In this document: in pieces, positions 7,105 to 26,620 of the stretch | Position numbering within the stretch: the stretch's first letter is position 1 | Layout: every line of letters starts with the position of its first letter | DNA from: Phaeodactylum tricornutum CCAP 1055/1 | Taxonomy: Eukaryota; Bacillariophyta; Bacillariophyceae; Surirellales; Neidiaceae | Assembly (NCBI RefSeq): GCF_000150955.2 | Contig: NC_011687.1 | Location: forward strand, 124,001 to 188,000 | DNA: 64,000 nucleotides | Direction: 5' to 3' | Notes under the pieces: model-generated | What the model was told of the DNA's origin: nothing | What the model saw: the letters and a program-made list of their open reading frames with translations, nothing else | Databases searched by the model: none | Made by a program: the position numbers and the translations under genes

Positions 7105-8775
7105 TCAACAAAACGATGTACTCGTGGGTGTCGATGTGGAGCATAAATTGTTGTACCTCCCATCAATAGGCGGCCGGAATGGTGTTCTCGAAGTGTTGCT
7201 GGTCCTGGGCGTAGGGGCTCCTTTGGGAGGTGGAGAAAAATAATCACTGGGGCGAAAGGCGCCGTCCCGTACAGGAATTTGAGTCGCTTCCTCCAAGGCT
7301 TGGTATAGGGGCTCGGCCGCCTTTGGGCCCTTCTGCTGCATTACGAGCCCAGCATCGACCGGTTGGCCGTAAAATTTGGAATTCACGTCGTTTCGAATTC
7401 GAACAACGGAACCTTCTAGACTCAGACCGACAAACAATCCTTGGGAGTGGGCGTAGGCGTAAGCCGGATGTAAGGTCCAATCGCCCGTTTGTAGGTGCGA
7501 GGTTGCACCCCTTCCAACAGGACCGACAGCAACTCCCAACTCGGCTCCCAATTGGATCGAATTGGACCCACAAATATCTTTGACTGCTTTGGTAGTTGTC
7601 AGAACAATAAGATAATGCGTCACATCCCCACCAACCAAGGCGCCCCAACCCATCCCGACTGTACCAACGGCTGCTGGTGCACTCCATGCGGGGCCTCCTT
7701 CGCCCGAAAACGAGTCTTCTAATCGTGCAATGACCAAGCCTGTCCCTAATCGGCCTGACACCACAAAGCCCGCCTTAAAAACTGTCATGAACACTAGCCC
7801 CTTCGCTTGTTGCAACAAATCCAAAGGGATAGCTTGGTCCGTTTCCGACATGTTTCCGTGACACATGTATTGCACCGTCCGTGTGGCTTGCCGAATGGAT
7901 GAACCTAGTGTGAAGGACACGGGATTATTCCATTTCCAACGATCTCCTGAAGCTGACGTGTCATTCTCGCGTTCGCAGGGCAGCTTGTCGGGGGCAGCCA
8001 GAAATTCAAAGACCGCCTGCGCTAAAATGGGTGGTAACGTTTCGGCGTTGTACTGTTCTAAAAGATGCACGAGCCAAATATCAAGTTGAATTGTTCGAAA
8101 GGAAACCAGATCGTCGTGCTTATCTGGTGCCCACGTAATGGAAGGTGTCCAGTTCCCTATTCGACCGGCCCAATGCTTGGCCGGGAAGCACGCGTCCCCC
8201 GGCGTCGCCACGTTGTGAGTTTGACACAATGCGTGCAGTTTGGCAAAATCCGAATACCGGTGCTCCACTAAAATTTCCTGCTGATTCTGAATGACCCGAA
8301 TTACGTATGTCGTAAAAGTGGCGTTGCTCAAATCGGAACGCTTTTCCGCAGAAACCACACGCACCACGAAATGGTGTGGATTCTGAGTGGCGTGCGCGTA
8401 CCGCTTGTCTTCCAGGGCTTGAGTACGCCCCGTCCCGTGTTTACGCCATTCCTGTCGAGCCGTAGATGCGAGATCGGCGGTATTGCTGCTCTTGGTGGAA
8501 TTCATGGAGGGTTCCGACGCCGCCATGGGGTGTGCCATTGCACGCATTGTGCCCTCCGCAGTCGAGTGGTGCAATTGCTGAGAAGTAGGAGGCCTGATCC
8601 TACCACAATCCGTCACCGCCAACGACTGCTGGTAAGGTGGTATCACGTTCGTCGAACGTGGTAGCTGGCCGGAGAAGGCGGGGCCAAGGTCTTCGTTATC
8701 GAAACTATCGTCCTCGTTGTCGTCTCGCAGTTGCGCCGCTCGACGCATCGCATCGTTCCGTAGCGACGCCGACAT
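7105..8775 (-). CDS. PX domain + SYLF domain protein
   Basis: 556 residues from the first ATG in frame; the frame stays open upstream but has only TTG/CTG. A disordered N-terminal third is followed by a PX domain (about 135-262), with the RYSDF motif near 173 whose Arg binds phosphoinositide head groups in this fold. A SYLF/Ysc84 domain follows (about 297-500), including QAKGLVFMTVFKAGFVVSG and the glycine-rich VGTVGMGWGALVGGDVTHYL. The tail is Pro/Ser/Thr-rich. SYLF proteins such as SH3YL1 and Ysc84 bind membranes and actin; plant relatives pair SYLF with FYVE. The PX-SYLF order suggests recruitment to endosomal or plasma membrane lipids. The combination is less usual than SYLF-SH3 or FYVE-SYLF. 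It is convergent with the gene to its left. Confidence 0.88.
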   Translation of the reverse strand: MSASLRNDAMRRAAQLRDDNEDDSFDNEDLGPAFSGQLPRSTNVIPPYQQSLAVTDCGRIRPPTSQQLHHSTAEGTMRAMAHPMAASEPSMNSTKSSNTADLASTARQEWRKHGTGRTQALEDKRYAHATQNPHHFVVRVVSAEKRSDLSNATFTTYVIRVIQNQQEILVEHRYSDFAKLHALCQTHNVATPGDACFPAKHWAGRIGNWTPSITWAPDKHDDLVSFRTIQLDIWLVHLLEQYNAETLPPILAQAVFEFLAAPDKLPCERENDTSASGDRWKWNNPVSFTLGSSIRQATRTVQYMCHGNMSETDQAIPLDLLQQAKGLVFMTVFKAGFVVSGRLGTGLVIARLEDSFSGEGGPAWSAPAAVGTVGMGWGALVGGDVTHYLIVLTTTKAVKDICGSNSIQLGAELGVAVGPVGRGATSHLQTGDWTLHPAYAYAHSQGLFVGLSLEGSVVRIRNDVNSKFYGQPVDAGLVMQQKGPKAAEPLYQALEEATQIPVRDGAFRPSDYFSPPPKGAPTPRTSNTSRTPFRPPIDGRYNNLCSTSTPTSTSFC

Positions 8776-9273
8776 GCAAACCCCGTGCGTACAAGGAACA
8801 AGGAACCAAAGACAGCGATTACAGAAGAGGTGGATGAATGAAGTCTGGAGAATCTCTTTGGCAGCCAAACAGCCTCCCCAAAGTGGTCGAAGGTTTGTTC
8901 GAAAACGAGCCAACAGCAACAGAACACTTTGACTCTCCTCACTGTCAGCTCACATCGTTTGCTTCTCTCGACTCACAGTGACCGCGATTCCTTTATCTAA
9001 GACTCAAAAAAGATAGACGATCCCGACCGGGCTGGCTGCCAGACCGTGATGGCAATTGTGATTGTGCATAGAAACTATCACCGAGTGACTGTTTAAAAAT
9101 CCCCGATTTTTCAGGATTAGTTTGACCTTCTCATTACACCTCAAATACCGACAGCAATGCTGTCATTGACTAAACGCTCTACTAGCGGAGAAGAGCTAGT
9201 CGTCAATAGACGTAAAAGCATATAATTGTCCCCAGCGTGATATACACGACCTATTTTTTACTGATCGAGACAA
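8776..9273. promoter_or_regulatory. Intergenic region, promoter of the PX-SYLF gene
   Basis: It lies between the 5' end of the PX-SYLF gene and the 3' end of the demethylase gene, both on the minus strand. TCACAGTGAC at 8973-8982 and CACTGTCAG near 8940 are members of the recurrent intergenic word discussed in the findings. No gene is visible. Confidence 0.35.
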
Positions 9274-11560
9274 CTAGACAGTCGGACCTACGCCCCCGCG
9301 AACGCCCACAACTTCAATCTCGTTTTCGTCCGCTTCGGCAAAGGCCACTTCATCAATCATGCAACCTGAAGATGCATCGGAATCAACAGTCGTCGCCACC
9401 GACCTTGATTCTTCCTTGAAGCTGGCACTCATTGGAGGGTTGAAACGGTACGTCTCGGTCAAGAACTCCGCAGTTGAAATTTCATGGTTTTTGTGAATCG
9501 CCAAGTCCCGCTCAGCGCCAGGGGCCATTGTGGGAAGAGGTTCTTGACTGGCGGAAAGATCTTTGCACTGCGCTAACGCTTCGTCAGTGCATCCTTCCTT
9601 GATCTTGAGTACCTCGCAGTGATTGCGTACCCGCTCCATCGTCGATTTGAGCTCCTCGTCATCGCTCCAAATCATGAAGTATTTGCGCTCCGTCGCACAC
9701 CGACACATGTAGTGACTGTGTCGCAGACAGCTCACTTTTGATTGACTGCACTCGCAGGCAACGGCCGAGAAGAAGCATACATGTTTGCAGCCGTGACACA
9801 AACGTTTGTCGTCGTAGTTGGCGCTATTTTCGTCCAACTGATCGAGACGATTCTTCGGCAAAGATATAATCTTGGACACATCCCGGACACCCTCCCCCAG
9901 TAGCTTGGCCCGCAAACGCAACTCTTCCTCGACCACACGTTTCAGTTCAATCAAGAGCAGCTTGCAAGTGGAATATGCTTTTTGTTCTTGTAGATGATTG
10001 GCCATAGTAAAGGTCAGGCGATCGTGTGAAAAGACGGCCGGACGAGCGAAGGAACGGTACCGCTCGTTCGCATCCGAACCGTAGGCAATCCAGTCGTGAG
10101 TGGCAAAGTTGACCGCTTCGCCCACGTTCGGACCTAGGCTAAACCCCCCATGAAAAGCCCGGGGAAAGGTGATGATGAATTCACCTTCGTGCTGTAGAAG
10201 CTTGTAGACGGGGACCAGCGCATTCTGCAAGAGTCTAGGACTGAACATGGTAGTGATGTGGTGGAGCAAATCCGGTACATCACGCATCTTCATGGACAAA
10301 AAGCTCTTGAACACTTTCTCCAAACCATCCGCAGTTTGTTTACTCTGTCCAGGTACGCCGTACCACAGTTTGGGGGCGCCACGGTGATTGTAATTTATGC
10401 TGTAGAGGTAATTGTCCTCGTTGTGCCAGCAAAACGTGGTAAATAGTGATCCGTAATACATCCAGGGAACATTGATTCCGTTGATACCAACCTTGACGTG
10501 GCGTAGCACGCTATCCGGTGCGCAGGGAATGTTATTGAGATTCCACCACGTTTCTTTGTAGTAATCTTCGCTACCAAATGTAGGTTCCGGTAGATCCATC
10601 TTTTCCAGTTTCTTGGTGCCGTACACGGACCGTCCGCGCTGCGAAAGAGGAAAGCCCGACCCGAACTCTTCCGTGTCGACATCGTTCCCGTAGTCCACCG
10701 TAACCGGGCGTGTATGGGTTTCCACAATGTCCCAGTAATCCCGCTCCAGGTTTTCCGGACGAAAGAGCTTGGCGCGCTGGGCATCCTCCTGGACTACGTC
10801 CGCGTGCCGGGAGAGTAGATCGTGATCAGGGTAGTTGAGAGCCTTCCATTCCTGGGTCCGTTCACTGGCCATGCGTTGGTACTCCTTTGGTGTATAGTCG
10901 ACGCCATCGTCGAAACTGATTCCTTCTTGGAGACGATGTAGCAACTGTCGCTTGGTTTGAAATTTCTTTCTCGTATTGCGATCCACCTCTGTACGCAAAG
11001 AAAAAAAGGCCGTGAGAAAAAAAAATCCGTTGGGAGCTACCCGCTAATTTCGCGGTTTAGCAGTAAACTAGTTCCTATCGAGGCATTAGCCGTAATTCGC
11101 GGGACCAAAATCAAAACAGGTATCAAGGTCAAGTGTGTGTGTGTGTGTGTGTACATATTGTAAATAAGTGTTCAGGCAAGCGCGAGTACCGTCCATGGTC
11201 ACGTTCCAGTCGATCGAGTATGCCGTTCCCAGCCAAACCTGGACACGCTCCAAACGGGATTGATTACTTACGACAGGGAGGATTCCATCCGTCCGGAGGC
11301 ACGATCTTGCAGATCCCGTAGCGTTCCGCCACAGGCCGAATCTTTTCGACGAAATGAATCATGTTGCCTTCGAAATCTTGTACGGTGGGATAAAAGGTGG
11401 GTGCCCAGGGCACTTCGAGCGTTCCGTCCCGTCCCTGATCGAGCTTGGAATTTTGGATGGCCTGTTGGAGAAAGCGTTCCTCCGCCGCCGTGGCGTGGTG
11501 GAACGGATGCGTCCGCTTGCGGCGGCGTTTGTTGGCACGGTGACTAAAGGCTGCACTCAT
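9274..11560 (-). CDS. JmjN/JmjC/C5HC2 histone lysine demethylase, KDM5-like
   Basis: Two exons, 11560-11272 and 10988-9274, with a 283-nt GTAAGT...ACAG intron, give 667 residues. The junction lies inside JmjN and restores DGWNPPCQVDRNTRKKF, supporting the model. JmjN spans about 50-115. JmjC spans about 240-420, with HNE (H285, E287) and FHGGF (H376) supplying the Fe(II) triad. The C5HC2 zinc finger is at about 493-528 (CHGCKHVCFFSAVACEC onward). Such enzymes remove methyl groups from histone H3, usually H3K4, using 2-oxoglutarate and O2. Unlike animal KDM5 there is no ARID or PHD finger, which resembles plant JMJ14-type proteins. A basic run (KRRRKR, 11-16) may be a nuclear signal. The intron carries a (GT)n tract. 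It is divergent from the isoleucyl-tRNA synthetase gene. Confidence 0.93.
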
Positions 11561-12479: not shown

Positions 12480-15400
12480 ATGTCGGCACTTCCTCCCAAT
12501 CTCGACTTTGCGGCGACCGAGGTCGAAATTTGCGCAAAATGGAAACAGGAAAGCACGTTTCAAACCCAGGACAAGCTCAGTTTGGACCGCGGTGATGAGG
12601 TGCGTGGGAGTGCGTAGAGCGGACCCATTGACTCTGAATGAGATCTATTGTCGCTCGCAAGTACTCGTATGGTACTTTCGTGCGTGCGTGATACTGACAC
12701 ACTGTGTATTTTTGTTTTTGTTCGCGTACGGGTACAGGAATTTACGTTTTACGACGGACCTCCGTTCGCCACGGGTCTACCCCATTACGGCCACATTCTG
12801 GCCGGTACCATCAAAGACACGGTCACGCGGTACGCCGCCATGTCGGGCAAGCACGTTTCCCGCCGGGCCGGATGGGACTGTCACGGACTGCCCGTCGAGT
12901 ACGAGATTGACCAAAAACTCAACATTACCCACCGCGATCAAGTTTTGGAAATGGGCATTGACAAGTACAACGCCACGTGCCGATCAATCGTCACGCGATA
13001 CACGGCGGAATGGGAAAGTACCGTCACCCGACTCGGTCGCTGGATTGATTTCGAAAACGATTACAAGACCATGGATCCGTCCTTTATGGAAAGCGTTTGG
13101 TGGGTCTTTCGCCAATTGTTCGATAAGAATCTCGTTTACCAAGGGTACAAGGTCATGCCCTACTCAACGGCCTGTACAACCCCGCTCAGTAACTTTGAAG
13201 CTGGTTTGAACTACAAGGACGTCAAAGATCCGGCCGTGGTGGTGAGCTTCCCCATACTGGGCGAACCACAGGAAGTCTCCTTCGTCGCGTGGACCACCAC
13301 CCCCTGGACCTTGCCGTCCAACTTGGCGCTCTGCGTCAACCCCGCCATGGAATACGTACAAATCCTCGACAAGGCGACCAACCACAGCTTTATTCTCGCC
13401 AAAAGTAGACTGGCGCAACTGTACCCCATCATGAACAACAAGAAAAAGTGGAAGCCCGAAAAAGCCGCCGAGTTGTACGAACTCCAAGCGACAATGCCGG
13501 GTACGGCGCTGGTCGGGAAACGCTACCAGCCGCTTTTTGACTTTTTCCAGGGAGAGCCGGGATCGGAAAACTACTGGCAGGTCGTGTCGGACTCCTACGT
13601 GACGGACGATGCCGGTACCGGCGTGGTCCACCAGGCACCGGCCTTTGGAGAAGACGATTACCGTGTCTGTCTCGCCCACGGCATTATCGCCAAGGGAGGC
13701 GAAGTTCCCTGCCCGGTCGATGCCGACGGCAACTTTGTCGATCTGATTGCACCCGTCAAGGGCATGCACGTCAAGGCTGCCGACGAGATTCTTATTCAGC
13801 TCGTCAAGGACAGTGGCCGTCTGGTACAGAAGGATGTCTTGCTGCATTCGTATCCCTTTTGTTGGCGTTCGGATACCCCCTTGATCTACAAGGCGGTACC
13901 CTCGTGGTTCGTCAAGGTGGAAGAGATCCGCGACCGCATCGTGGAGAACAACAAGCAAACACACTGGGTGCCCAAAGAGGTTAAGGAAGGACGTTTCCAC
14001 AACTGGTTGTCCGACGCCCGTGATTGGGCCGTGTCGCGGAATCGGTTCTGGGGAACACCCATACCTATTTGGGCCAACGACGACCTCTCCGAAGTAGTTT
14101 GTATTGGCAGTGTTGATGAGTTGGCGGAACTATCCGGTGTTCGGGTGGAAGATCTCCACCGCGAAACGGTGGATCAGATCACCATCCCGTCCCAGAAGAC
14201 CCCGGGCGGCGTCCTGCGTCGCGTCGACGAGGTGTTTGATTGCTGGTTCGAATCGGGATCCATGCCGTACGCACAGAGCCACTACCCATTCGAAAATAAG
14301 GAGGGATGGGAAAAGGGGTTTCCTGCGGATTTCATTGCGGAAGGCTTGGATCAAACGCGAGGTTGGTTCTACACATTGATGGTCTTGTCCACGGCTTTGT
14401 TCGACAAGCCCGCGTTCAAAAACAATATCGTTAATGGTATGGTGTTGGCATCCGACGGCCAGAAAATGTCCAAGCGCAAAAAGAACTATCCCGACCCGAA
14501 CATTGTAATCAGCAAATACGGTGCGGATGCCCTCCGTATGTATCTGGTCAACTCCCCTGTGGTACGTGCTGAGTCGCTCAAGTTCAAGGAAGAAGGCGTC
14601 CTGGGAGTCGTCAAGGAGGTCTTTCTTCCGCTCTACAATGCCTTCCGCTTCTTTTTACAAAATATTGAACGGTGGGAACTTGAAGGCAGCAGCAAATTCG
14701 TGCCCGATCTTGACAAGGTTCGCCAGACGGCGAACCCCACCGATATTTGGATTCAGGCCGAGACTCAGGGTCTTATTAAATTCGTTCACGAAGAAATGGG
14801 CGCGTACCGACTGTACACCGTCATGCCCGCTCTGGTATCGTTTGGCACACAGTTAACTAACTGGTACGTGCGTTTGAATCGGGATCGTCTCAAAGGAGCC
14901 GAAGGAGAAGGTCAGGAAGCCGATATCGAGGCTGAAACTGGTCTGCAGGTCCTCTACGATGTACTTCTGAACGTGTCCATGATTATGGCTCCTTTCACCC
15001 CGTTTATTACCGAGTTCTTTTATCAACATTTGAGAAAATTCCAGCCTTCCTATCTAGACGCTACCAACGGAGGGGGCACCTCGAATCCGCCGATGCCTGG
15101 AAAGAGTGACTCGGTCCACTTCTTGCGACTTCCTACTTATGATGAAACTCGGTTGAACAAACAGGTCGTGGAAGCCATGGAAGCTTTGCAGAGTGTGGTA
15201 GAACAAGGGAGAAACGCTCGGGAAAAACGGAACATTAATCTACGCACCCCCATTAAAACTATTGTTGCCATTCTTCGGAATCCAGCAGATTACGTTGTTG
15301 CTGGCATCACTGGCCCGCTAAAGCGATACATCTTAAGCGAACTTAACGTCTGGGATTTCAAGGTTGTCCCGGCAGAGGAAGAACATGATTGGGTGACTCT

Positions 15401-16151
15401 AGCTTTAACACCTGATTTCAAAGTTCTCGGCAAAAAGCTTGGTAGCAAGATGAAAGCTGTGTCTGCAGCGGTCAAGGGCTTGTCACATGAACAAGCTGTA
15501 AAATGCCTCGAAGACGGAAAACTCGAGATTGAAAGAGTCGCATTGGATACTGCAACAGAACTCGTTTCAAAACTCACATTTTCTCGCGAGGGAGAACATT
15601 GGGAAGCCACGGAAAAGCCGGACGGATCTTTGGTGGTTGCGATCGACTGCACACAGGATGAAGCAATTTTGTCGGCGGGAAGGTCGCGGGAGCTGATGAA
15701 TGCTATTCAGCAGCTTCGAAAGAATGCCGGCCTCGATCTCAAGGATGTTGTTGAGACTTTCTTTCGTGAAGAGGAAGGTGTGACACTCGTGGAAGAAACG
15801 GTAGCTCGTAACGTTCCACTTTTCGAAGCAAAATTCAAAGGTGCCGTTCCTCTGCCTTACCGTTTTGTGCCCAAGTGGGCGGTGGTCTTAAAGAACGAGA
15901 CAGTGGACGTGGGAGGGACGAAAGTTGATGTGTTTATTTTCAGACCGGCAGTAGCTGTTAAGGAATCTCTGGGTCCTTCAGTTGAGAGCGTGCTCTCAAC
16001 ACTGGAGCCCTCTAGTCTGCCGAAAGGTGGAAAGTTTAGCTTTTCCCTCGACGGAGTCTCAACAACGTTGACCGAAGGAACTGACTTCTGGCTGTCTACA
16101 ACGGATAAGGTCCGATATACCAAAGTCTTGGCTTGGTTGAAAGTATCATAG
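12480..16151 (+). CDS. IARS: Isoleucyl-tRNA synthetase, cytosolic eukaryotic type
   Basis: Two exons, 12480-12599 and 12738-16151, split by a 138-nt phase-0 intron (GTGCGT...ACAG), encode 1,177 residues, the usual size for cytosolic IleRS. The enzyme charges tRNA-Ile and edits valine. Exon 1 supplies the family's N-terminus, and the junction leads straight into EFTFYDGPPFATGLPHYGH, which holds the class I HIGH motif as HYGH (about 56-59). The KMSKS motif is present as KMSKR near 616-620. WTTTPWTLPSN belongs to the editing (CP1) domain. The C-terminal third has the anticodon-binding domain and the eukaryote-type extension. No targeting presequence is seen. It ends only 52 bp from the convergent coiled-coil gene, so the 3' UTRs probably overlap. 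Confidence 0.96.
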
Positions 16152-16203: not shown

Positions 16204-19200
16204 TCACGTATCGCCAGAGCTAACAGTGGAATAAAAGCGCTTGACTGACTCACTAAGCCGTCGCAGACTCTCGGCATTCCCTTCTCTTTCCCTCAGTAAC
16301 CGATCGATTGCCTCGGCCCTACGATTCTCTGATCGTTCTAGAGCAACAGCGAGCGACATGACGTGTGACCGAAGACTACCAACGTCATTGGAGTGGCCTT
16401 GTGAGTTTGATGCTTCCAACGATTCTGCAGCGCCATTTCGCTGGGCCACCTTTGTTTGCCTCAAGTGCTTGTTCAGATGATCAACTTCTTCTTCCTTGGT
16501 TACCAGGCGCGCTCTGGTTGACTCGAGAGCACTCTCAAGTGACTCAACCTGATGCCTCAGGTTCTCCATTTCGGACTCGTGTATAGAGCCTTCGAATTCG
16601 CGCAGGTGCAACGATTCAGCTGTTGCAAGAGATTCCAAATGCGTCTGTTGAAAAATCTCTAGCTTGGCCTGGCTGGCTTGGAGCTCAAACTCAAGGCTGG
16701 ACACATTTTCCTTGTAGGACTCAATCTTTTGCTCCGTTACGGAACGCTCCAGAAGCAGATCGTTCAACCTCTGTTCGTAGCCCTCAACTGTTGCTGATAA
16801 TTCAAGCGGTAATGTCGATTCAATACCATGTTCAGAGGGCTGCTCAATTGCTCTATTTGAGGCTTTGGCGGTGTCGAGTTGCTCACGTGACAACTCAAGT
16901 TCTTTTCTGGTGTTTTGAAGCATCTCTTCCAATTCCTCTACACGCTTATAGTGCTCGATACATGCACGCTCTCTGGTCAAAAGTTTCTGTTTTACACCTT
17001 CAAATTCACTGGTGAAAGATGCTCTGTCAGTATCAAACTGCACTCCCAGCTCGTGAAGTTCTTCGTTCTTTGAGATCAATTCTTGATATACTCTCTGATA
17101 TTCTTCATCTTGTTGAGTAGAGCGAATTCGAAGTTCCTCAGCTTCCTTTCGGTTTTGAACGAAATCTTTTAGTTGTTCCTTAAGACTTACAATTTCGGAA
17201 GACTGAGCCATTGTCGCGTTCCGGAGCTCATTGCATTCAGTCTGAAGCTGCGTACTAGAAGAAGATTTCTCCTGACCAGAGTAAGACGCAATCAAGTCTT
17301 CGTGTGCCACCTCAAGCTCCCGAATTCGGGACACTAACTCTCTGCGCTCTTCACCGGCCTCCGCTATACTGATTTCCAAGAAATCCCGCGCTCTCGACAA
17401 CTCAACATTACTTTTCAGCAGCTCTTGGTGCTTTTCCTGCATTGTAACCATTTTTGATGATACCACATTGTCCGATCCTTTGAGAATCTCAATTTCCTCT
17501 TGTAGCAGTTGCACTTGTTCGTCGCCCTCATCCAGCTTCTCCTTCAACAACCCAAACTGCACAAGCATCTCTTCGTTCTCTTCAGCAAGAAGGTCCCGTT
17601 CTTTGCTGACTTCTTTCAAATTCGATTGATTAACTTGGAGCTCATGCTCGATAGAGTTCAATGCCCCTAGCTTATCCGAAAGTAAACTGTTCTTTTCTTG
17701 AAGACGCTCCAGATCCTGCGACAAGCGATTTGACGTTTCCAAGGCTTGCCCTTCGGCTTCCAGAATTGCAGCTTTGGATCGATCTTCGACTTTTTGAAGT
17801 TCACTCGACAATGTGACGTTATGTTGATCCAAGGCATCACACTTCAGCCGAAGGCTGGACAATTCCTTATTTTGTCGAGACATCGCTTCCTCCCATTGCC
17901 TCTTTGAATCTTCGAAAAATATCTTTGCCTCGATCGCCGCTCTCTTCATGTCCTCCTTTTCCGAATTAAGAGCTTCTTTCTGGCTGACGGCGTTCTGGGC
18001 AAGATTCTGCGCTTTCGCAAGCTCGGCTTTCACCTTGCTGATCGTTTTGGCATCGCGCAAACTCTGGGCAGAATCTTCCAAAAGCTGCCGCTCGGCATTC
18101 GACAACTTCAACAATGCTTCTTGAAGAGAGTGCTCAGATTCTTCTAGCTTGGTAGCAAGCGTCGTTAGCTCGTTGTGTAGCTGCTGATTTTTATGAGTGG
18201 CTTCAGCTGTTTCAGCCTTTTGAGCAGCTGCCATGGTGTTCATATTTTCGATCTGAGATTCCAAAGACGCCGAGAGTGCTTGAGATGCAAGTAGTTCTTT
18301 GCTGTAATCCTCTTTCTCCTGGCGAAGAATTTCAATTGCATTCAATTTTTCAACTACAGCGACCTTCTCTGCCGCCAGCGCCTCCTTCGCGCGCTCGACC
18401 TCGATCTTTAGGGCCTCTGTTTCATGACTTTTTCTCTCATCTGAGTCTTCCTTCTCCAATCCACAAGTATCAACCAAACCTTGCAGAGAAGCTAGAGCTT
18501 CCTTGCTTTCAATGAGTGACTCCTGAAGTAAGTCTCTCTCTCTTGCCACAGATAGAAGCTCGCTAGCCAACGAGTCAGACTCATTCGCCAGAGAGCGATA
18601 TCGGGAGAGGTCCGCCAGAGCTGTACGCTTTTCGTCGGACAAACCAGTTAATGTAGCCTCCAAAGAACGAATCTCGGCAGTCTTCTTGTCCAGCAACTTG
18701 TATTGTTTTTGTAGCTCCTTTTCATGCTGGACCTGAAGCTCTGCCACCTTCTGGGCAAAAGCATTCCTGGCTTCGCGAAGAGCTTTGACTTCTTCCATAC
18801 CTTCTTCGCTCATCAGGAGTGAAGAACTCTGAGGGGGTTTGGCGGCCAGCTCTGCCTGCAAAAGGCAGACTTTTTCGTTGAGCTGTTGGCAAGATATGTA
18901 TTTTTCTTCTTCCGTCCTCTTCTTTTCTTCCGCTTCGCGTAGTAATTGTTTCTCAAGCTGCATAACTTTTAACTCCAGCAAGTTGCTTTCACCAGATTTA
19001 GCAGACAGCTCACCTTCTAGATGCAAAACTCTTGCCTTCAGATCAGCATCCAACGCTTCAACCGTGGCATAATTTCCCAGCAATTCCTTTAAATGAGAAA
19101 TCTCGCTTTCCAAAAGAGTAGTCTTTGCATTCAATTCAATATGGGCGTCCTTAGCATTCGTCTGTGTCTCGCTTTGGAAAGGCGCTTGGTTCAATAGCTG

Positions 19201-22200
19201 CATTTTCTCATCTTCTAGTCTAGAACACGTGTAATTTAACACTTCGACCCTCTCAAGGAGGTCGTCATTCGAGCGGCGCAGTGACCCAATTTCTGTTTCG
19301 AGAAAGCCCTGCCCTGAATCTCTATCGCGCTCGCCATCTATTTGCGCTCGTAAGATCTTCACTTCTTCTTCGACTAAACGACGTCTGGTCATCTCGTCTT
19401 GCAGAAGCTTGCCAAAATCAACCTTGATTGCTTCGCCTTCAGAAGTCTCCATAAAGCCTACCAATTCTGCTTGTTGAGACGAGTCACCAATCAGCCTTTT
19501 AACACAAGGACAGTCAACCGACTCCTCGTTACAACACGTGACGCAACGCGGTGGCGGCCTCTTACTAAGAAGTCTGTGATACAGTTCTGCTCCAATACTA
19601 TCCGACTCTTGCCCCGGAGGGGGCGAGCTCGATCGCCTGTATGGAGTCGACGGCGGTGTGTCTGCCTCGGATAGAATCTTGTCAAAGGGAACCTCTTCGT
19701 GGACGAGCTTACAGGGTTGCATTCTATCTTCTAATGCTACAAAACTGCTCGAATCCGGATCAAAGTATTGGGTTGAGTTTGCCGATTGCTGTTCTCCGTG
19801 CTCGGGCTCCAGTACGTTCGTTCTGTTTGAGGCCACTTCTTTGGGCGCAATGTCATCCACCGAAGATTCGAATCGAACCGATACGTTTCTCTCGGGCTCG
19901 CTTGTTGCCGATGTTGACCGTCGAAAAGATCGGTGTAAAACGGACAAATTGAGTTGAGGCTTCTCGGAAAGGCCTCCGTCGGAGACATCCAAATCTCCAT
20001 CATCGTCCCAGCCACCACCGTCTTCATCTTCGTCGCTCTCCACTTCTGAAACAGTAGCCAGTGCATCCACTGTCGATCCACCCCTCGAGGGCGCTAGAGA
20101 GGCGCGAGACGTGGGCAGATGGTCGACCACAGGACCGAATTCGATATCATCGTCTTCTTCTTCTTCATCGCCAGTTAGTTGCGACCGACCGACCGTTGCG
20201 ATGGAATCAATCTGCCGTTTGGATTTCATTTGAGATGGTAAATGATCTACCACAACTTTCCTTTTGTCGGTCATCGTCTCCTCTGACTGTCCTTCCGCAT
20301 TGTCCTCTTTTTCCAATGCACGGCATTCGGACGCTGTCATTTGTGTGGCGATAGAAGTAGTCGACACTACTGATCGCGGAACAGAGGAGGCGAGCCTTGG
20401 GGTTTGATCGACGACGGGTCCAAAGTCGTCTTCTTTGGGATCTTCCGCCTGAAGCACCAAAGATTGCGCTCCTCCAACTGCCACTTCCGAAGCATCTTGG
20501 CTCCCATGCGAGGAAGACGAAAGCACCACGGCTGTACCGTCTTCTTGAGGAGGAATGAAATCGACCAGTGGTTGCTCTGGCGGCTCCGGGGGAACGACAG
20601 GCTCGTCATTGCCCGACTGTGGGTTCGGTGTTTCTTCCAGGACGGGATCATCGTGGTCCCAGCCTTCGTCACCACCTTGTCCTTCCGTTTCGTCGTGGTC
20701 CTCAAAATCGTCCTCGGCAATGGAGGGGGGTGCAAAGACGGCCGTTGAGCCGGCCCCCGACGGTGGCTCTATATGTGCGGTGGCGGACCTGGTGGGGGGC
20801 GTCAAATCGACCACTGGTCCGAAATTGCCTTCTTCCTGAGCCATGTCATCGACCTCGGACATGAGATCCGACGGTTCCGCCGCCACTAGAGTAGATGCGT
20901 CACCGAAACGAGACTCCGGTCGCTGGGGTACGCGGTCGACCAACTGGTCTTCCCGTGATTGCAAGGCGGACGGTCTTTCGTCGGTGGTTTCGTCATCGGC
21001 TGATGCCTGGGACGATACTTCTTGATGAATACTGGAATCTCCGGCTGCTACTGTAGATCCTCCCGCTAACGTCCCATCCACCGTATCGTGGTCCTGAGCT
21101 TGAACAATCACCGAATCCGACCGGATAGAAAAAGGAACTAACGGTACGGTGGGAGTATGATCCACCACGGGACCATACACGACCTGTTCGTTGGTGCTAT
21201 CATTCTCACCCGCTTCCTTCGAACCGTCTTCCGAAGCCAAGACCGCCACGGACAAGTCACCCCTCTTACCGTGCGGTGAACCCATTTCGGAAGGAGTGTG
21301 ATCCACCAGTGTTGAGCCCTCCGTCAGGTTCGTTTGCAGAGCCATGGACGGAGCCTTGCTTCCTGGATCGATCGAGTCCTCGCCAAATTCCGTATCATCC
21401 AACGCATCGTCATCGTCGTCATCATCGGCTTCAAAATGAACCGCCATGGAGTTGGCTCCCGAGGTAGCCCGCGACAGAGCTGGAGTCAAAGGAGTATGAT
21501 CCACCACTGGGCCGTACTCATTTTCGTTACCGTACGGATAGAGATCTTCGTCCTCACCGTTTCCGGAATTTCGCGTGAGGTCGTCCTCCGGGGCCAGGGC
21601 TACGAGTGACGGGTCCGAAAAGGGAGCTCGGGGAGGACCCTGGGGTATTTCCAAAGGAACGTGGTCGACCACGGCCCGTCCTTCGGATACACTACTTGCT
21701 GTATGGTAGCCGGTGACGGGGGTCGCCGGGGGTGACGTGGTTGTCGCAGCGGTTGGTTCCCCACCGGCCGACGACGCTTCCGTGTTTTCCAAGCTGAGAT
21801 CGTCCGCATCGCCCCAACCATTGTCTTGGTTTTTCTCACTGGTATTGTCCAAGGTGGTGGCGTCGCCATCGCCTTGGGATTCTTCCAAGTAGTAGGTTTC
21901 GTCCATGGCGTCGTCTTGACGAAAGTCTTCTTCGAGAGTGGCAGCGTGAACGGCCCCCATCGAATTGACAACGGATACAAACGGCGACGATGGTATGGAC
22001 GACGAATCGGCGGGAGTGTGATCCACCACGGGGCCAAACGCGTGCTGCTGGTCCGTGTCTGGTGGTTGTTGTTCATCATCGTCGCTCTCATGATTCGGAG
22101 GCAGATCCGCGACGCTGGTATCGGTTTCGGATGGGGCCAAGGCACCAACCGAAACATTCCAGCTCGCTGGATGCGATATTTCTTCCGCGTTGGGTGTGTG

Positions 22201-22956
22201 ATCGACCAACACTCGAGTCGATGTGGAGGTGAGATTTGTTGTTGTTGCCGTGGAGGCTGGTCGCCAATCCTCATTCTCGGTAATATGTTCGTCGTCTAGA
22301 TCGAGATTCTCGTTCGTCGTATGGAGTCCCTGTACGGCCAGGGAACTTTGTCGATCGAAGGCAACGGTGATTGTGTGTTCGCGGGGTGTTTGATCGACAA
22401 CGGGTCCAAAAGTTGTGTCGTTTTCGTTTCCGCTTGTATCCTCGTAGCCGTCGTGATTGTCGAATCCTGTCTCCAAGTGTGACGATCGCTGTTCGTCGGT
22501 TGCTGTGATACTGTTTGGAAAAGGGTCCCCTCCCACGGAGGCGTCGTCCAACGACTCGAGATCCCCCAAAAGATCGTCTTCATCGGCAGTCCACGCGTTG
22601 GGTTCATCGGACGACTCACCCAATCCCCAACCGTCGTGAGACCGCGACGGATCGTCGACCACGACACCGACGGCTTCCTCTCGAGGCGAGTCTTCCGAAT
22701 GATGCGTGACTTGTTCCAAAAAGCGCGACAAGCGTCCCATGAACATGGTGCCAACTGCGGGAGGACGATTGGTAGTGGAAGAGAACGACGGGTCGTTGTT
22801 GTTGTTGTCGTCGTCGTCACTGTATATTTCTTCGTCGTCGTTGTCGTCACTGTATAGTTCTTCGTCATTGTCGTCTTGGTCGCTGTACAGGTCGTCGTCG
22901 TCGTCATTATTGACGGGAGGCGGTGGTGCCGCTGCCCGCATCATGTTCGACCACAT
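16204..22956 (-). CDS. Giant VVDHTP-repeat and coiled-coil protein (2,250 aa), candidate tether
   Basis: A single-exon protein in three parts. Residues 1-180 are highly acidic, with three YSD-acidic repeats. Residues about 183-948 carry 13 copies of a VVDHTP-type motif in degenerate units, listed separately, with GW-acidic motifs at W110, W381 (GWGDADD), W766 (GWDHDD) and W983 (GWDDDGD). Around 1145-1165 a Cys cluster (CVTCC...CPC) might bind zinc. Residues about 1190-2240 are an almost unbroken Glu/Lys/Leu/Gln-rich coiled coil. I do not recognise the protein. A long coiled coil plus acidic-Trp motifs resembles vesicle tethers and coat-binding proteins, and the divergent neighbour is Sec24-like; a golgin-like role is inference. 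A second ATG lies four codons in. The start and frame are otherwise unambiguous. Confidence 0.85.
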   Translation of the reverse strand: MWSNMMRAAAPPPPVNNDDDDDLYSDQDDNDEELYSDDNDDEEIYSDDDDNNNNDPSFSSTTNRPPAVGTMFMGRLSRFLEQVTHHSEDSPREEAVGVVVDDPSRSHDGWGLGESSDEPNAWTADEDDLLGDLESLDDASVGGDPFPNSITATDEQRSSHLETGFDNHDGYEDTSGNENDTTFGPVVDQTPREHTITVAFDRQSSLAVQGLHTTNENLDLDDEHITENEDWRPASTATTTNLTSTSTRVLVDHTPNAEEISHPASWNVSVGALAPSETDTSVADLPPNHESDDDEQQPPDTDQQHAFGPVVDHTPADSSSIPSSPFVSVVNSMGAVHAATLEEDFRQDDAMDETYYLEESQGDGDATTLDNTSEKNQDNGWGDADDLSLENTEASSAGGEPTAATTTSPPATPVTGYHTASSVSEGRAVVDHVPLEIPQGPPRAPFSDPSLVALAPEDDLTRNSGNGEDEDLYPYGNENEYGPVVDHTPLTPALSRATSGANSMAVHFEADDDDDDDALDDTEFGEDSIDPGSKAPSMALQTNLTEGSTLVDHTPSEMGSPHGKRGDLSVAVLASEDGSKEAGENDSTNEQVVYGPVVDHTPTVPLVPFSIRSDSVIVQAQDHDTVDGTLAGGSTVAAGDSSIHQEVSSQASADDETTDERPSALQSREDQLVDRVPQRPESRFGDASTLVAAEPSDLMSEVDDMAQEEGNFGPVVDLTPPTRSATAHIEPPSGAGSTAVFAPPSIAEDDFEDHDETEGQGGDEGWDHDDPVLEETPNPQSGNDEPVVPPEPPEQPLVDFIPPQEDGTAVVLSSSSHGSQDASEVAVGGAQSLVLQAEDPKEDDFGPVVDQTPRLASSVPRSVVSTTSIATQMTASECRALEKEDNAEGQSEETMTDKRKVVVDHLPSQMKSKRQIDSIATVGRSQLTGDEEEEDDDIEFGPVVDHLPTSRASLAPSRGGSTVDALATVSEVESDEDEDGGGWDDDGDLDVSDGGLSEKPQLNLSVLHRSFRRSTSATSEPERNVSVRFESSVDDIAPKEVASNRTNVLEPEHGEQQSANSTQYFDPDSSSFVALEDRMQPCKLVHEEVPFDKILSEADTPPSTPYRRSSSPPPGQESDSIGAELYHRLLSKRPPPRCVTCCNEESVDCPCVKRLIGDSSQQAELVGFMETSEGEAIKVDFGKLLQDEMTRRRLVEEEVKILRAQIDGERDRDSGQGFLETEIGSLRRSNDDLLERVEVLNYTCSRLEDEKMQLLNQAPFQSETQTNAKDAHIELNAKTTLLESEISHLKELLGNYATVEALDADLKARVLHLEGELSAKSGESNLLELKVMQLEKQLLREAEEKKRTEEEKYISCQQLNEKVCLLQAELAAKPPQSSSLLMSEEGMEEVKALREARNAFAQKVAELQVQHEKELQKQYKLLDKKTAEIRSLEATLTGLSDEKRTALADLSRYRSLANESDSLASELLSVARERDLLQESLIESKEALASLQGLVDTCGLEKEDSDERKSHETEALKIEVERAKEALAAEKVAVVEKLNAIEILRQEKEDYSKELLASQALSASLESQIENMNTMAAAQKAETAEATHKNQQLHNELTTLATKLEESEHSLQEALLKLSNAERQLLEDSAQSLRDAKTISKVKAELAKAQNLAQNAVSQKEALNSEKEDMKRAAIEAKIFFEDSKRQWEEAMSRQNKELSSLRLKCDALDQHNVTLSSELQKVEDRSKAAILEAEGQALETSNRLSQDLERLQEKNSLLSDKLGALNSIEHELQVNQSNLKEVSKERDLLAEENEEMLVQFGLLKEKLDEGDEQVQLLQEEIEILKGSDNVVSSKMVTMQEKHQELLKSNVELSRARDFLEISIAEAGEERRELVSRIRELEVAHEDLIASYSGQEKSSSSTQLQTECNELRNATMAQSSEIVSLKEQLKDFVQNRKEAEELRIRSTQQDEEYQRVYQELISKNEELHELGVQFDTDRASFTSEFEGVKQKLLTRERACIEHYKRVEELEEMLQNTRKELELSREQLDTAKASNRAIEQPSEHGIESTLPLELSATVEGYEQRLNDLLLERSVTEQKIESYKENVSSLEFELQASQAKLEIFQQTHLESLATAESLHLREFEGSIHESEMENLRHQVESLESALESTRARLVTKEEEVDHLNKHLRQTKVAQRNGAAESLEASNSQGHSNDVGSLRSHVMSLAVALERSENRRAEAIDRLLREREGNAESLRRLSESVKRFYSTVSSGDT
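20113..22410 (-). repeat. 13 degenerate VVDHTP units, two alternating types
   Basis: Type A ([FY]GPVVD[HQL][TL]P) and type B ([LV]VD[HRF]xP without GP) strictly alternate, A-B-A-B to A, with the VD of each motif near residues 187, 251, 311, 430, 485, 551, 598, 673, 716, 798, 849, 903 and 943. After each motif comes a 10-25 residue spacer, a short hydrophobic patch (such as SLAV, SVAVLA, SMAV, STAVFA) and an acidic stretch. Spacing averages about 63 residues. The strict alternation implies that the ancestral duplication unit was an A+B pair. Confidence 0.85.
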
Positions 22957-23684: not shown

Positions 23685-26620
23685 ATGAGTCGTCGTCGCG
23701 ACGGCTTTGCCGTATTGCGTCCCGTCAGTCGAGCGGTGCCGTCGAGTCGAACCATCCGGGACGACAGTCGCTTGCCGGACGCCTTGGTCGTGACGCCCGT
23801 CGTCGTCGTCCCGGCAGCAGAACCCGTTCCCGACGACGGTGTCCCGCCTCTCCTGACTGCCGTTCCCAAGTGCGAGCGGTGTGGGGCACCCCATCCGGAT
23901 CACGTCACACACTTTGGTCCTTCCACTCCGGCACTCCTACTCTGTTTTCTCTGTGGACACCACCAAACGCACCAGGCATCTTCCTCCGCAACCATCCCAT
24001 CATCCTCCGTATCAGGGTCATCATCTGCGTCCCAATCATCCTCGTGCGTCTTTACTTTGCCCTTACGGTGGCCCCCATCTTTGGATTCTTCTCCCCCCAC
24101 TCCGTCCTACCGCGTCCCGGCCCGGGCCTGTCCACCCTTGTGGTTCCTCGTCCTGGATGGTTCCTGCCACGAACGATCCTACTGGCAAGCCGTCACGCAA
24201 GTACTGTCCGAAATATTACAACCCGCCAACGACAACAGTGCCGATACCACGGCGCCACCGGAACACGTACACGTGAGTATACTCCTCGCCTACACCACCA
24301 CCAGTGGCACCAACGACGACAACAATGCCCACCACACCACCCACACCCCAAACAACACCCCCAACAACAACCCCAACAACACCCCAAACAACACCCACAA
24401 CGTGCTCGCCGTCTGGCAACTGGATTCTCCGTATCCACACGTTCAACACCGTTCCAGTGCCGAACCCGACGCCGATGATTTACTCCGACATTTGGCCCAC
24501 AGTCCGGTACCCTTGGACGGAGCCCACGTCCCACACGTGCACGCGGCTCTCCGGACTTTGCTCGATTACGTCCCGTCCACACCCGACGCACGCTTTCCCC
24601 TCGCTTGGACCGTCCGGGCAGTCCAAGCGACTCTCGACGAGTACGGACACGCCGCTGGACTCCGAGAGAACCACAATCATCACGACAACCACCACCACCA
24701 CAACAACAACCATCACGACACGACACGGTTACCCTACGCCGGAGCCAAACTCACCGTACTCCTCGGTTCCCGACCCACCGGAATATCCCAACGTGTACGG
24801 AAACACGATAACTCAGTCGGACTTGGTGGTGTTGGTGGACGTATCGGCAATAGTCCCGGACAACGATTCCCCACTCCACAGCCACAACGCGGCAAGCACC
24901 AGCCGGATCTCACACCCTCGGCTCTACAGGAATACTATCAACCCACCACGCCATCCGTGGAGGTGGAGTACTCCGCGTTGGGTCGCGCCTGTGCCCGGGT
25001 AGCCATGGGTGTGGATGTCTTGTGTCTCGTTACCGAACCATCCCAATCAAAAGCCGACACCAGCCCGCACACGTTTGTACCCCCGACCGATTTCGGAATC
25101 GCCCTCTGGAGTAGCCTCACAGACACTAGTGGTGCGCCGGGGCCCTTGCTCCTGGATGTTACCACCGAGACCGGAAGGGAACGTCTGCAACGGGAAATCC
25201 AGGCACGCGTCCCTTGGAATCCCGCTTTGGTCTTTGGGGGTGAACTGCGCTTGCGTCTGCCGGCCGGCTACGCGGTGGACGAAACGGTTACGGCCTCGCC
25301 CACCGCAACCAACGACCACCCCGATGACACGGATGGCCCACAACTGGCGGCCGTCTTTTATAAGGCCGGACTTTCCGGACCTGCCAGTGCCGTCCAACCG
25401 CAACTCTGGAAACTGGGCACCGCCGATCCGTACACAACCCTGGCAATCGATCTCAAGCTGGAAAAAGACACCATACCGCATCGGCTCCACGTGCCCGGCT
25501 TGGGTGAAGTGTCACTCCCACCGACTCTGCAAACATGCTTCGCCTACACCCGCATCGTCCACCACGCACCCACGAATCAGTACGAAACACGCCGCGAAAT
25601 TCGGATCGCCAGCATCCGCCTACCCCTGGCGCGTACGGTAGAAGCCTTGTACGATAATTTGGATCCGGAAGCGCTCGCGGTCGTACTTTTTCATAAACTC
25701 GCCTTGGCCGGTCTCCAAGACGGCGTGGCGGAAATTCCCGTCGTCGCCAGCGCCTGGCTGCAATCGCTACTGGCCAGTGCCTACCGCTCCGCGGTGGAAC
25801 AGGATCGACTCGAGACGGAATTGCACGAACAAGGTCTGGAACCGGACGGAAAGTTTCACGCCATGCAGCGTTTATTGGACCGGGGCGGCGATTTCTCATC
25901 CGACGATGTCTTGTTGGCGCAGGGGCACCGGCGGCTCCGGACCGTCCCCTCATGACGTATTTGTTGCTCCAATCGGATGCGCTCCGGGCCTCGGGGTCAC
26001 CGTCCTTGGATCAACGCATGGCCGCCTTGCTGCAAATGGCCTCCATGCCACCGGAAGTCTTGACACGGTGTATTGCGCCGCGGATTCAATTGTGGGCCAG
26101 TGGGGCCGAGGACGACGAGCCCTTGGTAGATGTTTTGGAATTGCGATCGGAAGACATTCAAATGGCCGTCATGGAGCAGAGTCAGACGCAAAGAGAACTC
26201 ATCCTACTGATCGACACGCCGGACCAAACCACTGTTCTGGATGCTCGGTACGTAAATACGCACGTCAAGGATGGAACGGCCAAGCCGCTCGTGGTGGGAC
26301 GGGGGTTGCGACACGCCATTGCCGAAACCGCCGTCAGCTACCGGACGCCACCCACGATTGTGTATGAACTGGATCAAACGAGTACGGGAGGGGAACGGAC
26401 CTTTGCGAGACTCCTGGATGCCTTGGTGGAAGATGCCCCCAGTCCGGATGGACATGAAAATTATGACGGATGGAAACGAGATGTGGCCGCAGCGGTACTC
26501 GAGTAAGTTTGAATGCGGTTGCATGGCGTTTACTGTTTCGTTTTTTTTGGTAACGTGATGAATCTGACCCTTTTTTGCGTGTGTGTGTGCAGGGAACTGG
26601 AAAAGGACGAATTCGACTAG
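23685..26620 (+). CDS. Sec24-like COPII coat protein; one reading-frame break near 25,950
   Basis: Domains follow the Sec23/Sec24 order: zinc ribbon C63-x2-C66...C87-x2-C90; trunk (PLWFLVLDG, KLTVLLGSRPTG, LGRACARVAMGVDVL); beta-sandwich (GGELRLRLPAGY); and helical domain (ALAVVLFHKLALAGLQDG). At 25,953-25,955 the frame stops, and an overlapping ATGA opens another frame. That frame continues the helical domain (MTYLLLQSDALRASG...PPEVLTRCIAPRIQLW) and a gelsolin-like end. A 90-nt intron (26503-26592) then adds ELEKDEFD and a stop. Both halves match the same family across the break, which lies in a run of C, so a one-base indel (genomic or assembly) is likely; re-initiation or recoding cannot be excluded. 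Sec24 proteins select ER cargo for COPII vesicles. His/Asn/Thr-rich insertions sit in the trunk. The sequence is divergent from canonical Sec24. Confidence 0.75.

Follow-up and report, generated by a model that had tools for sequence, protein, structure and literature searches.

The window (the whole 64,000 nt stretch of Phaeodactylum tricornutum DNA that was analysed) carries a single intact open reading frame of 2250 aa on its minus strand. It begins with an ATG at 22956 and ends with a stop codon at 16204, without internal stops, and translation confirmed the coordinates 16204..22956 given in the original prediction. An upstream start is limited to about 10 further codons at most, as the open frame comprises 2260 codons. 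The features of this giant gene are listed below, in the order in which they occur along the protein.

16204..22956, minus strand: the entire giant gene, one open reading frame of 2250 aa, with no second copy found in the genome
22681..22737, minus strand (residues 74–92): N-terminal amphipathic segment GRLSRFLEQVT, from its helical hydrophobic moment
20113..22410, minus strand (residues 183–948): array of 13 VDxxP motifs (seven type A and six type B), from a motif scan
Residues 183, 307, 481, 594, 712, 845 and 940, minus strand: type A motifs, [FY]GPVVDxxP, from the same scan
Residues 247, 426, 547, 669, 794 and 899, minus strand: starts of the type B motifs, from the same scan
21799..21819, minus strand (residues 380–386): acidic-GW motif GWGDADD, from a motif scan
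20665..20958, minus strand (residues 667–764): well conserved B+A pair, LVDHVPxRPESRxxDASTLVAADPSE ... FGPVVDxTPP ... GSTVVxAPPS, from the alignment; predicted to be unfolded
20647..20664, minus strand (residues 765–770): acidic-GW motif GWDHDD, from a motif scan
19993..20013, minus strand (residues 982–988): acidic-GW motif GWDDDGD, from a motif scan
19357..19545, minus strand (residues 1138–1200): CxxC...CPC zinc-knuckle-like module, beta-hairpin and KLLQDE helix opening the coil, from sequence and AlphaFold
16387..19401, minus strand (about residues 1186–2190): coiled coil, from heptad (3.5) periodicity
17521..17589, minus strand (residues 1790–1812): conserved island in the coil around EENEEMLVQFGLLKE, with 62% identity against 18% for the coil
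16207..16371, minus strand (residues 2196–2250): conserved C-terminal cap, SLAxALExSExxRAxAIxxL...NADSLRRLxESVKRFYST, with 64% identity in residues 2196–2245

A class I tRNA synthetase ORF (12648-16151, plus strand), read as isoleucyl, lies tail to tail with the giant gene and ends 52 bases from the end of it. The window also carries a KDM5-like histone demethylase gene (9274-10998, minus strand), with JmjC, C5HC2 zinc finger and KDM5-type helical domains, and a gene for a PX and Ysc84 (Las17-binding) protein (7105-8919, minus strand) that is likely to link membrane and actin. The divergently transcribed neighbour (23685-25955, plus strand) encodes a 756-aa protein that has a CxxC near residue 65. 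It is reminiscent of a diverged Sec23/Sec24-type protein, but this likeness is unsupported: Pfam gave only DUF7685 (E 0.026), and the solved structures gave three unrelated matches with E-values of at least 0.68.

The genome searched comprises 27,450,724 bases (27.45 Mb) in 88 contigs. At an E-value of 0.001 the giant protein matched itself alone in this genome, and no second copy was found of either the Cys module or the C-terminal cap, for which the next match had an E-value of 0.75. All seven genome-wide sites of the [FY]GPVVD DNA pattern fall inside the giant gene, compared with a single site for the reversed control. The looser VDH pattern has 28 genome sites (8 in the giant gene) against 24 for its reversed control, and is therefore little informative.

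A database search with residues 60–1180 returned 82 proteins, including the query, and three more (P0083–P0085) came from a second search that started with a divergent member, so that the family consists of the giant protein and 84 relatives. The C-terminal cap as sole query gave seven matches at E 10, the query among them, and all were already members. Named relatives come from Seminavis robusta, Mayamaea pseudoterrestris, Nitzschia inconspicua, Cylindrotheca closterium, Cylindrotheca fusiformis, a Bacillariaceae genome, Grammatophora oceanica and Fragilaria crotonensis. The lineages looked up are all Bacillariophyceae or Fragilariophyceae, which we take to be the raphid and araphid pennates. 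Few matches bear organism names, and among these few there were no centric diatoms or other stramenopiles, in searches that require shared 5-residue words and scored about 8,000 candidates each. One relative (P0055, 3224 aa) carries precomputed methyltransferase-type Pfam accessions, and represents either a fusion or a wrong gene model.

The first 1130 residues of the giant protein (the head) are rich in Asp, Ser, Glu and Pro, and hold the 13 VDxxP motifs in the order ABABABABABABA, spanning 766 residues. When these residues were shuffled (2,000 tries), [VL]VDxxP occurred 0.097 times on average and at most twice. The spacings range from 41 to 119 residues, so the array has no fixed period. The 13 alternating motifs over about 765 residues that had been predicted are indeed present, and alternation is strict in this protein, but the VDHxP form ascribed to type B is found in only four of the six, the other two being VDRVP and VDFIP. 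Alternation 'without exception' likewise describes the giant protein and not the family, where it is a strong tendency but no rule. Perfect A/B alternation is seen in 16 of the 80 family arrays with at least eight motifs, the giant protein included, and some relatives show long runs of type B toward the N-terminal side of the array. Neighbouring motifs switch type in 857 of 1066 cases, compared with a mean of 551 and a maximum of 601 in 2,000 shuffles, relatives not being independent of one another. Acidic residues precede 401 of the 531 type A motifs of the family and 294 of the 703 type B motifs, against a background of 37%.

Identity to the giant protein was calculated for the 68 relatives, out of 81, that have a cap-like end. 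With gaps counted as differences it is 75% for type A and 67% for type B, figures favoured by the retrieval of relatives with the motif region as query, and 22% for the linkers and 18% for the coil. The Cys-hairpin module reaches 40%, residues 1790–1812 reach 62%, and residues 2196–2245 of the cap reach 64%, the cap lying outside the search query although rows were kept for their cap-like end. When gaps are left out, the corresponding values are 81% (type A), 75% (type B), 33% (linkers), 22% (coil), 42% (Cys-hairpin module), 63% (residues 1790–1812) and 65% (residues 2196–2245). These values bear on another explanation of the array, that of an ordinary low-complexity repeat protein in which expansion of the repeats produced the motifs incidentally, with no binding role. 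The acidic, Ser-rich head and the number of motifs, which varies widely among relatives, are compatible with such an origin. However, a young expansion would keep motifs and linkers alike, and here the motifs are kept (67–75%) but the linkers are not (22%); we consider this explanation very improbable.

The repeat is a two-part unit, the second half of which had been overlooked in the original prediction: VDxxP is followed, 10–16 residues on, by S[TLVMI]x[VA]. This holds for 9 of the 13 motifs in the giant protein, compared with 1.3 expected by random placement (9 was never reached in 20,000 trials), and the final four motifs have the second half in looser forms only. Across the family, there are 243 such matches for 509 type A motifs and 365 for 637 type B motifs, where nearby random anchors would give 41 and 58, respectively. 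At least one match follows 596 of the 1,146 family motifs (235 of 509 in type A, 361 of 637 in type B), the strict form being missing from about half of them. The consensus after type B is DAS[TV]xV[LA]A[DS], and after type A it is roughly GS[TV]AVxA. Types A and B thus differ on both sides of the VDxxP core as well as within it, suggesting either two receptor sites or two receptors. The B+A pair at residues 667–764 has a mean column identity of 50%, and AlphaFold, given 26 sequences, predicted it to be unfolded (mean pLDDT 60.6, pTM 0.12). A segment that is well conserved yet predicted to be unfolded speaks for motifs that would become ordered on binding. A bolder reading, which we consider unlikely, is that the two-part unit represents a new class of fold-on-binding motif, and the family a tether specific to pennate diatoms, which recognises receptors of two alternating types (A and B) on a single vesicle or coat.

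If the type A motifs were ligands of the AP-1 gamma ear, then their FGPVV core would dock in the ear like the FGPLV peptide of Rabaptin-5, and AP-1 vesicles would be collected by the protein at the trans-Golgi. A suitable ear is encoded by the genome. There are two matches to PF02883, and the one on contig C11 is a gamma-adaptin-like ear (E 1.7e-6 to human AP-1 gamma-1 ear structures) that keeps AVPK and two of the three basic residues of the strand LRMRIKL, which here reads LMLKLKL; we take AVPK and these basic residues to be functional in the gamma ear. The acidic residues ahead of type A also fit, and Rabaptin-5 is similar to the giant protein by description, with a long coil and an acidic stretch that contains a short aromatic-G-P motif, although it has one such motif and the giant protein has seven. 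The motifs themselves are a poor match to the ear ligands. A third of the family type A motifs have Tyr in place of Phe, type B lacks the aromatic residue of type A altogether, and the conservation of type A runs on through VVDxTP, past the end of a GAE ligand. A newer GAE expression fits only 75 of the 531 type A motifs and one of the seven in the giant protein. The published expression, [DE][DES].F.[DE][LVIMFD] (PMC1989135), matches none of the 531 and none of the seven. Rabaptin-5 is also described as binding GGA (PMC4102244). Overall, we regard AP-1 recruitment as improbable.

The acidic-GW motifs GWGDADD, GWDHDD and GWDDDGD are present as predicted, among or just after the VDxxP array, and such motifs recur in the family, where 634 of the 1,063 Trp residues in the heads are acidic, with the consensus [DN]GW[DE][DE]DD. 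In having Trp within acidic stretches, they are like the Trp motifs of the Dsl1/delta-COP system, to which the original prediction had linked them. The giant protein would then be a COPI tether of the Dsl1 type, its acidic-Trp peptides serving as delta-COP ligands. However, the delta-COP ligand is given as W x(1-6) [W/F] inside an acidic stretch (PMC11441981; PMC7145657), so that a second aromatic is needed, whereas the motifs of the giant protein have a single Trp. None of the eight Trp in its first 1,130 residues is followed by W or F within 1–6 residues, and among the acidic Trp of the family heads a nearby W or F on either side is found in 100 and missing in 534 of 634. The delta-COP link is not supported by these counts, and a Dsl1-type role is most unlikely.

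Outside the array, the GRLSRFLEQVT segment has the highest helical hydrophobic moment of the head, by a slight margin (0.62 against 0.59), and its pattern is found in 27 of the 72 proteins that keep the cap, including the giant protein. The predicted Cys cluster is located at residues 1138–1151 (CxxCC...CPC) and may bind zinc. CxxC-x(4-9)-CPC is found in 59 of the 85 proteins and a NEEMLVQFG-type string in 32 of the 85, several of the proteins being apparent fragments. AlphaFold predicts two short helices, a hairpin and the first long helix for this module (mean pLDDT 84.3, pTM 0.49), the first 40 residues, Cys included, being less sure (55–80). When residues 1126–1215 were compared with solved structures, no convincing relative was found among the known zinc-knuckle or beta-hairpin folds. 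From about residue 1186, heptad (3.5) periodicity and the scarcity of prolines (five in residues 1190–2250) agree with the coiled coil of about 1,000 residues proposed from the outset. Two conserved features of this half of the protein, the coil island and the C-terminal cap, had escaped notice. The EENEEMLVQFGLLKE island stands out in a fast-changing coil, and is possibly a partner site.

That no described family has this layout was upheld within the searches made (Pfam and solved structures). The whole giant protein matched no Pfam family at E 10, and no ATPase or motor domain was found in that search. Four relatives gave only below-cut-off matches to coiled-coil families, the CENP-F and Fez1 coils among them. 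With 21 family caps as queries, each Pfam family was matched by at most four, the best being a coiled-coil family (E 0.017), and no known C-terminal Golgi-targeting domain was recognised by these sequence models. A cap profile matched solved structures of generic coils weakly, the first two being a designed coil (E 0.024) and a CENP-E chimera (E 0.036). Precomputed annotation places PF24161 (CCDC39) on 16 of 82 proteins, the giant protein not among them. Three relatives so labelled showed no match to PF24161 at E 0.01, and the model had no match in the P. tricornutum genome, nor any in controls; membership of CCDC39 was rejected. Relatives labelled 'chromosome segregation ATPase', 'kinesin K39' or CCDC39 are themselves members of the family, and the labels are apparently coiled-coil artefacts. 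The weak coil and cap matches to generic and mitotic coils, together with the CCDC39 label, are most likely coiled-coil noise. Membership of TMF was rejected as well, as PF12325 (TMF_TATA_bd) matches no part of the giant protein (Pfam, E 10) and none of its 11 matches in the genome lies in the giant gene; a separate frame on contig C12 narrowly exceeds the cut-off of this model (30.6 against 29.1 bits). A clathrin box (type B) and LC3-interacting, SUMO-interacting or YxxPhi motifs (type A) were considered from general consensus forms alone, and were set aside. No literature was found on the string VVDHTP, and the titles and abstract openings listed for diatom golgins, Phaeodactylum Golgi or trafficking, and multivalent tethers mentioned nothing on the giant protein.

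Structures outside the endomembranes, such as the microtubule-organising centre, the nuclear envelope or the cytokinetic apparatus, commonly contain giant coiled-coil proteins that have disordered arms, and the giant protein could be a structural scaffold at one of these, its array recruiting regulators, perhaps under phosphorylation. The frequency of T-P is 63% for type A motifs and 39% for type B, many VDHTP sites being of this kind, and weak, generic coil likenesses to CENP-E, NDC80 and CENP-F were noted, all below cut-off or with E-values above 0.001. However, motifs without T mostly have L, I or V at its position, which so looks like a hydrophobic contact and less like a phosphate contact, and the protein has no Pfam domain of any kind. 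We consider a scaffold of this sort possible but doubtful.

A disordered array, a long rod and a conserved end cap form the plan of tethers and scaffolds, and our preferred, though tentative, reading of the sequence is that the giant protein is a long, probably dimeric, multivalent coiled-coil scaffold that would act like a golgin-type tether. The C-terminal cap would serve as the anchor at one end, with a small GTPase or another membrane receptor as the simplest docking site, and the coil of about 1,000 residues would hold the disordered head away from the anchored end. The head would present its 13 two-part motifs, with acidic-GW motifs between them, and may bind one or two partner types weakly, many times. 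The analysis shows the anatomy of the sequence and its conservation, the lack of a second copy, the predicted disorder in one motif pair and the absence of a Pfam match, whereas we infer that the protein dimerises, is anchored, binds multivalently and belongs to the endomembranes. The tether reading is supported by the conservation of the motifs relative to the linkers and coil, the set offset within the two-part unit, the unfolded B+A pair and the heptad periodicity, and the acidic residues ahead of type A and the TMF-like layout were also counted in its favour. The multivalent scaffold or tether of the original prediction therefore survives in outline, as it fits the anatomy (a predicted-unfolded array, a long coil and conservation in a family), but without its delta-COP/Dsl1 specifics.

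The nearest layout is that of the golgin TMF/ARA160, which is described as having about 400 unstructured N-terminal residues, about 500 of coil and a C-terminal Rab6-binding domain (PMC5267433). An unstructured N-terminal part, a long coiled coil and a functional C-terminal end are common to both, but the giant protein has a longer head with a motif array, lacks a match to PF12325 and is not TMF. Against a tether stand the lack of a golgin domain match in the searches described above and the weak cap and coil matches, none of which points to the Golgi. The six golgins mapped in the same source (PMC5267433) capture at their extreme N-terminus, in contrast to the long internal array seen here. 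Lineage-specific golgin-like proteins beyond those of animals and kinetoplastids have been proposed (PMC5840792). Should the tether reading be true, a model diatom would offer a clear golgin-like candidate in this family, and the motif array would be precise enough to serve as bait in finding its receptor. The conserved two-part motif is a directly testable lead even without a tether role.
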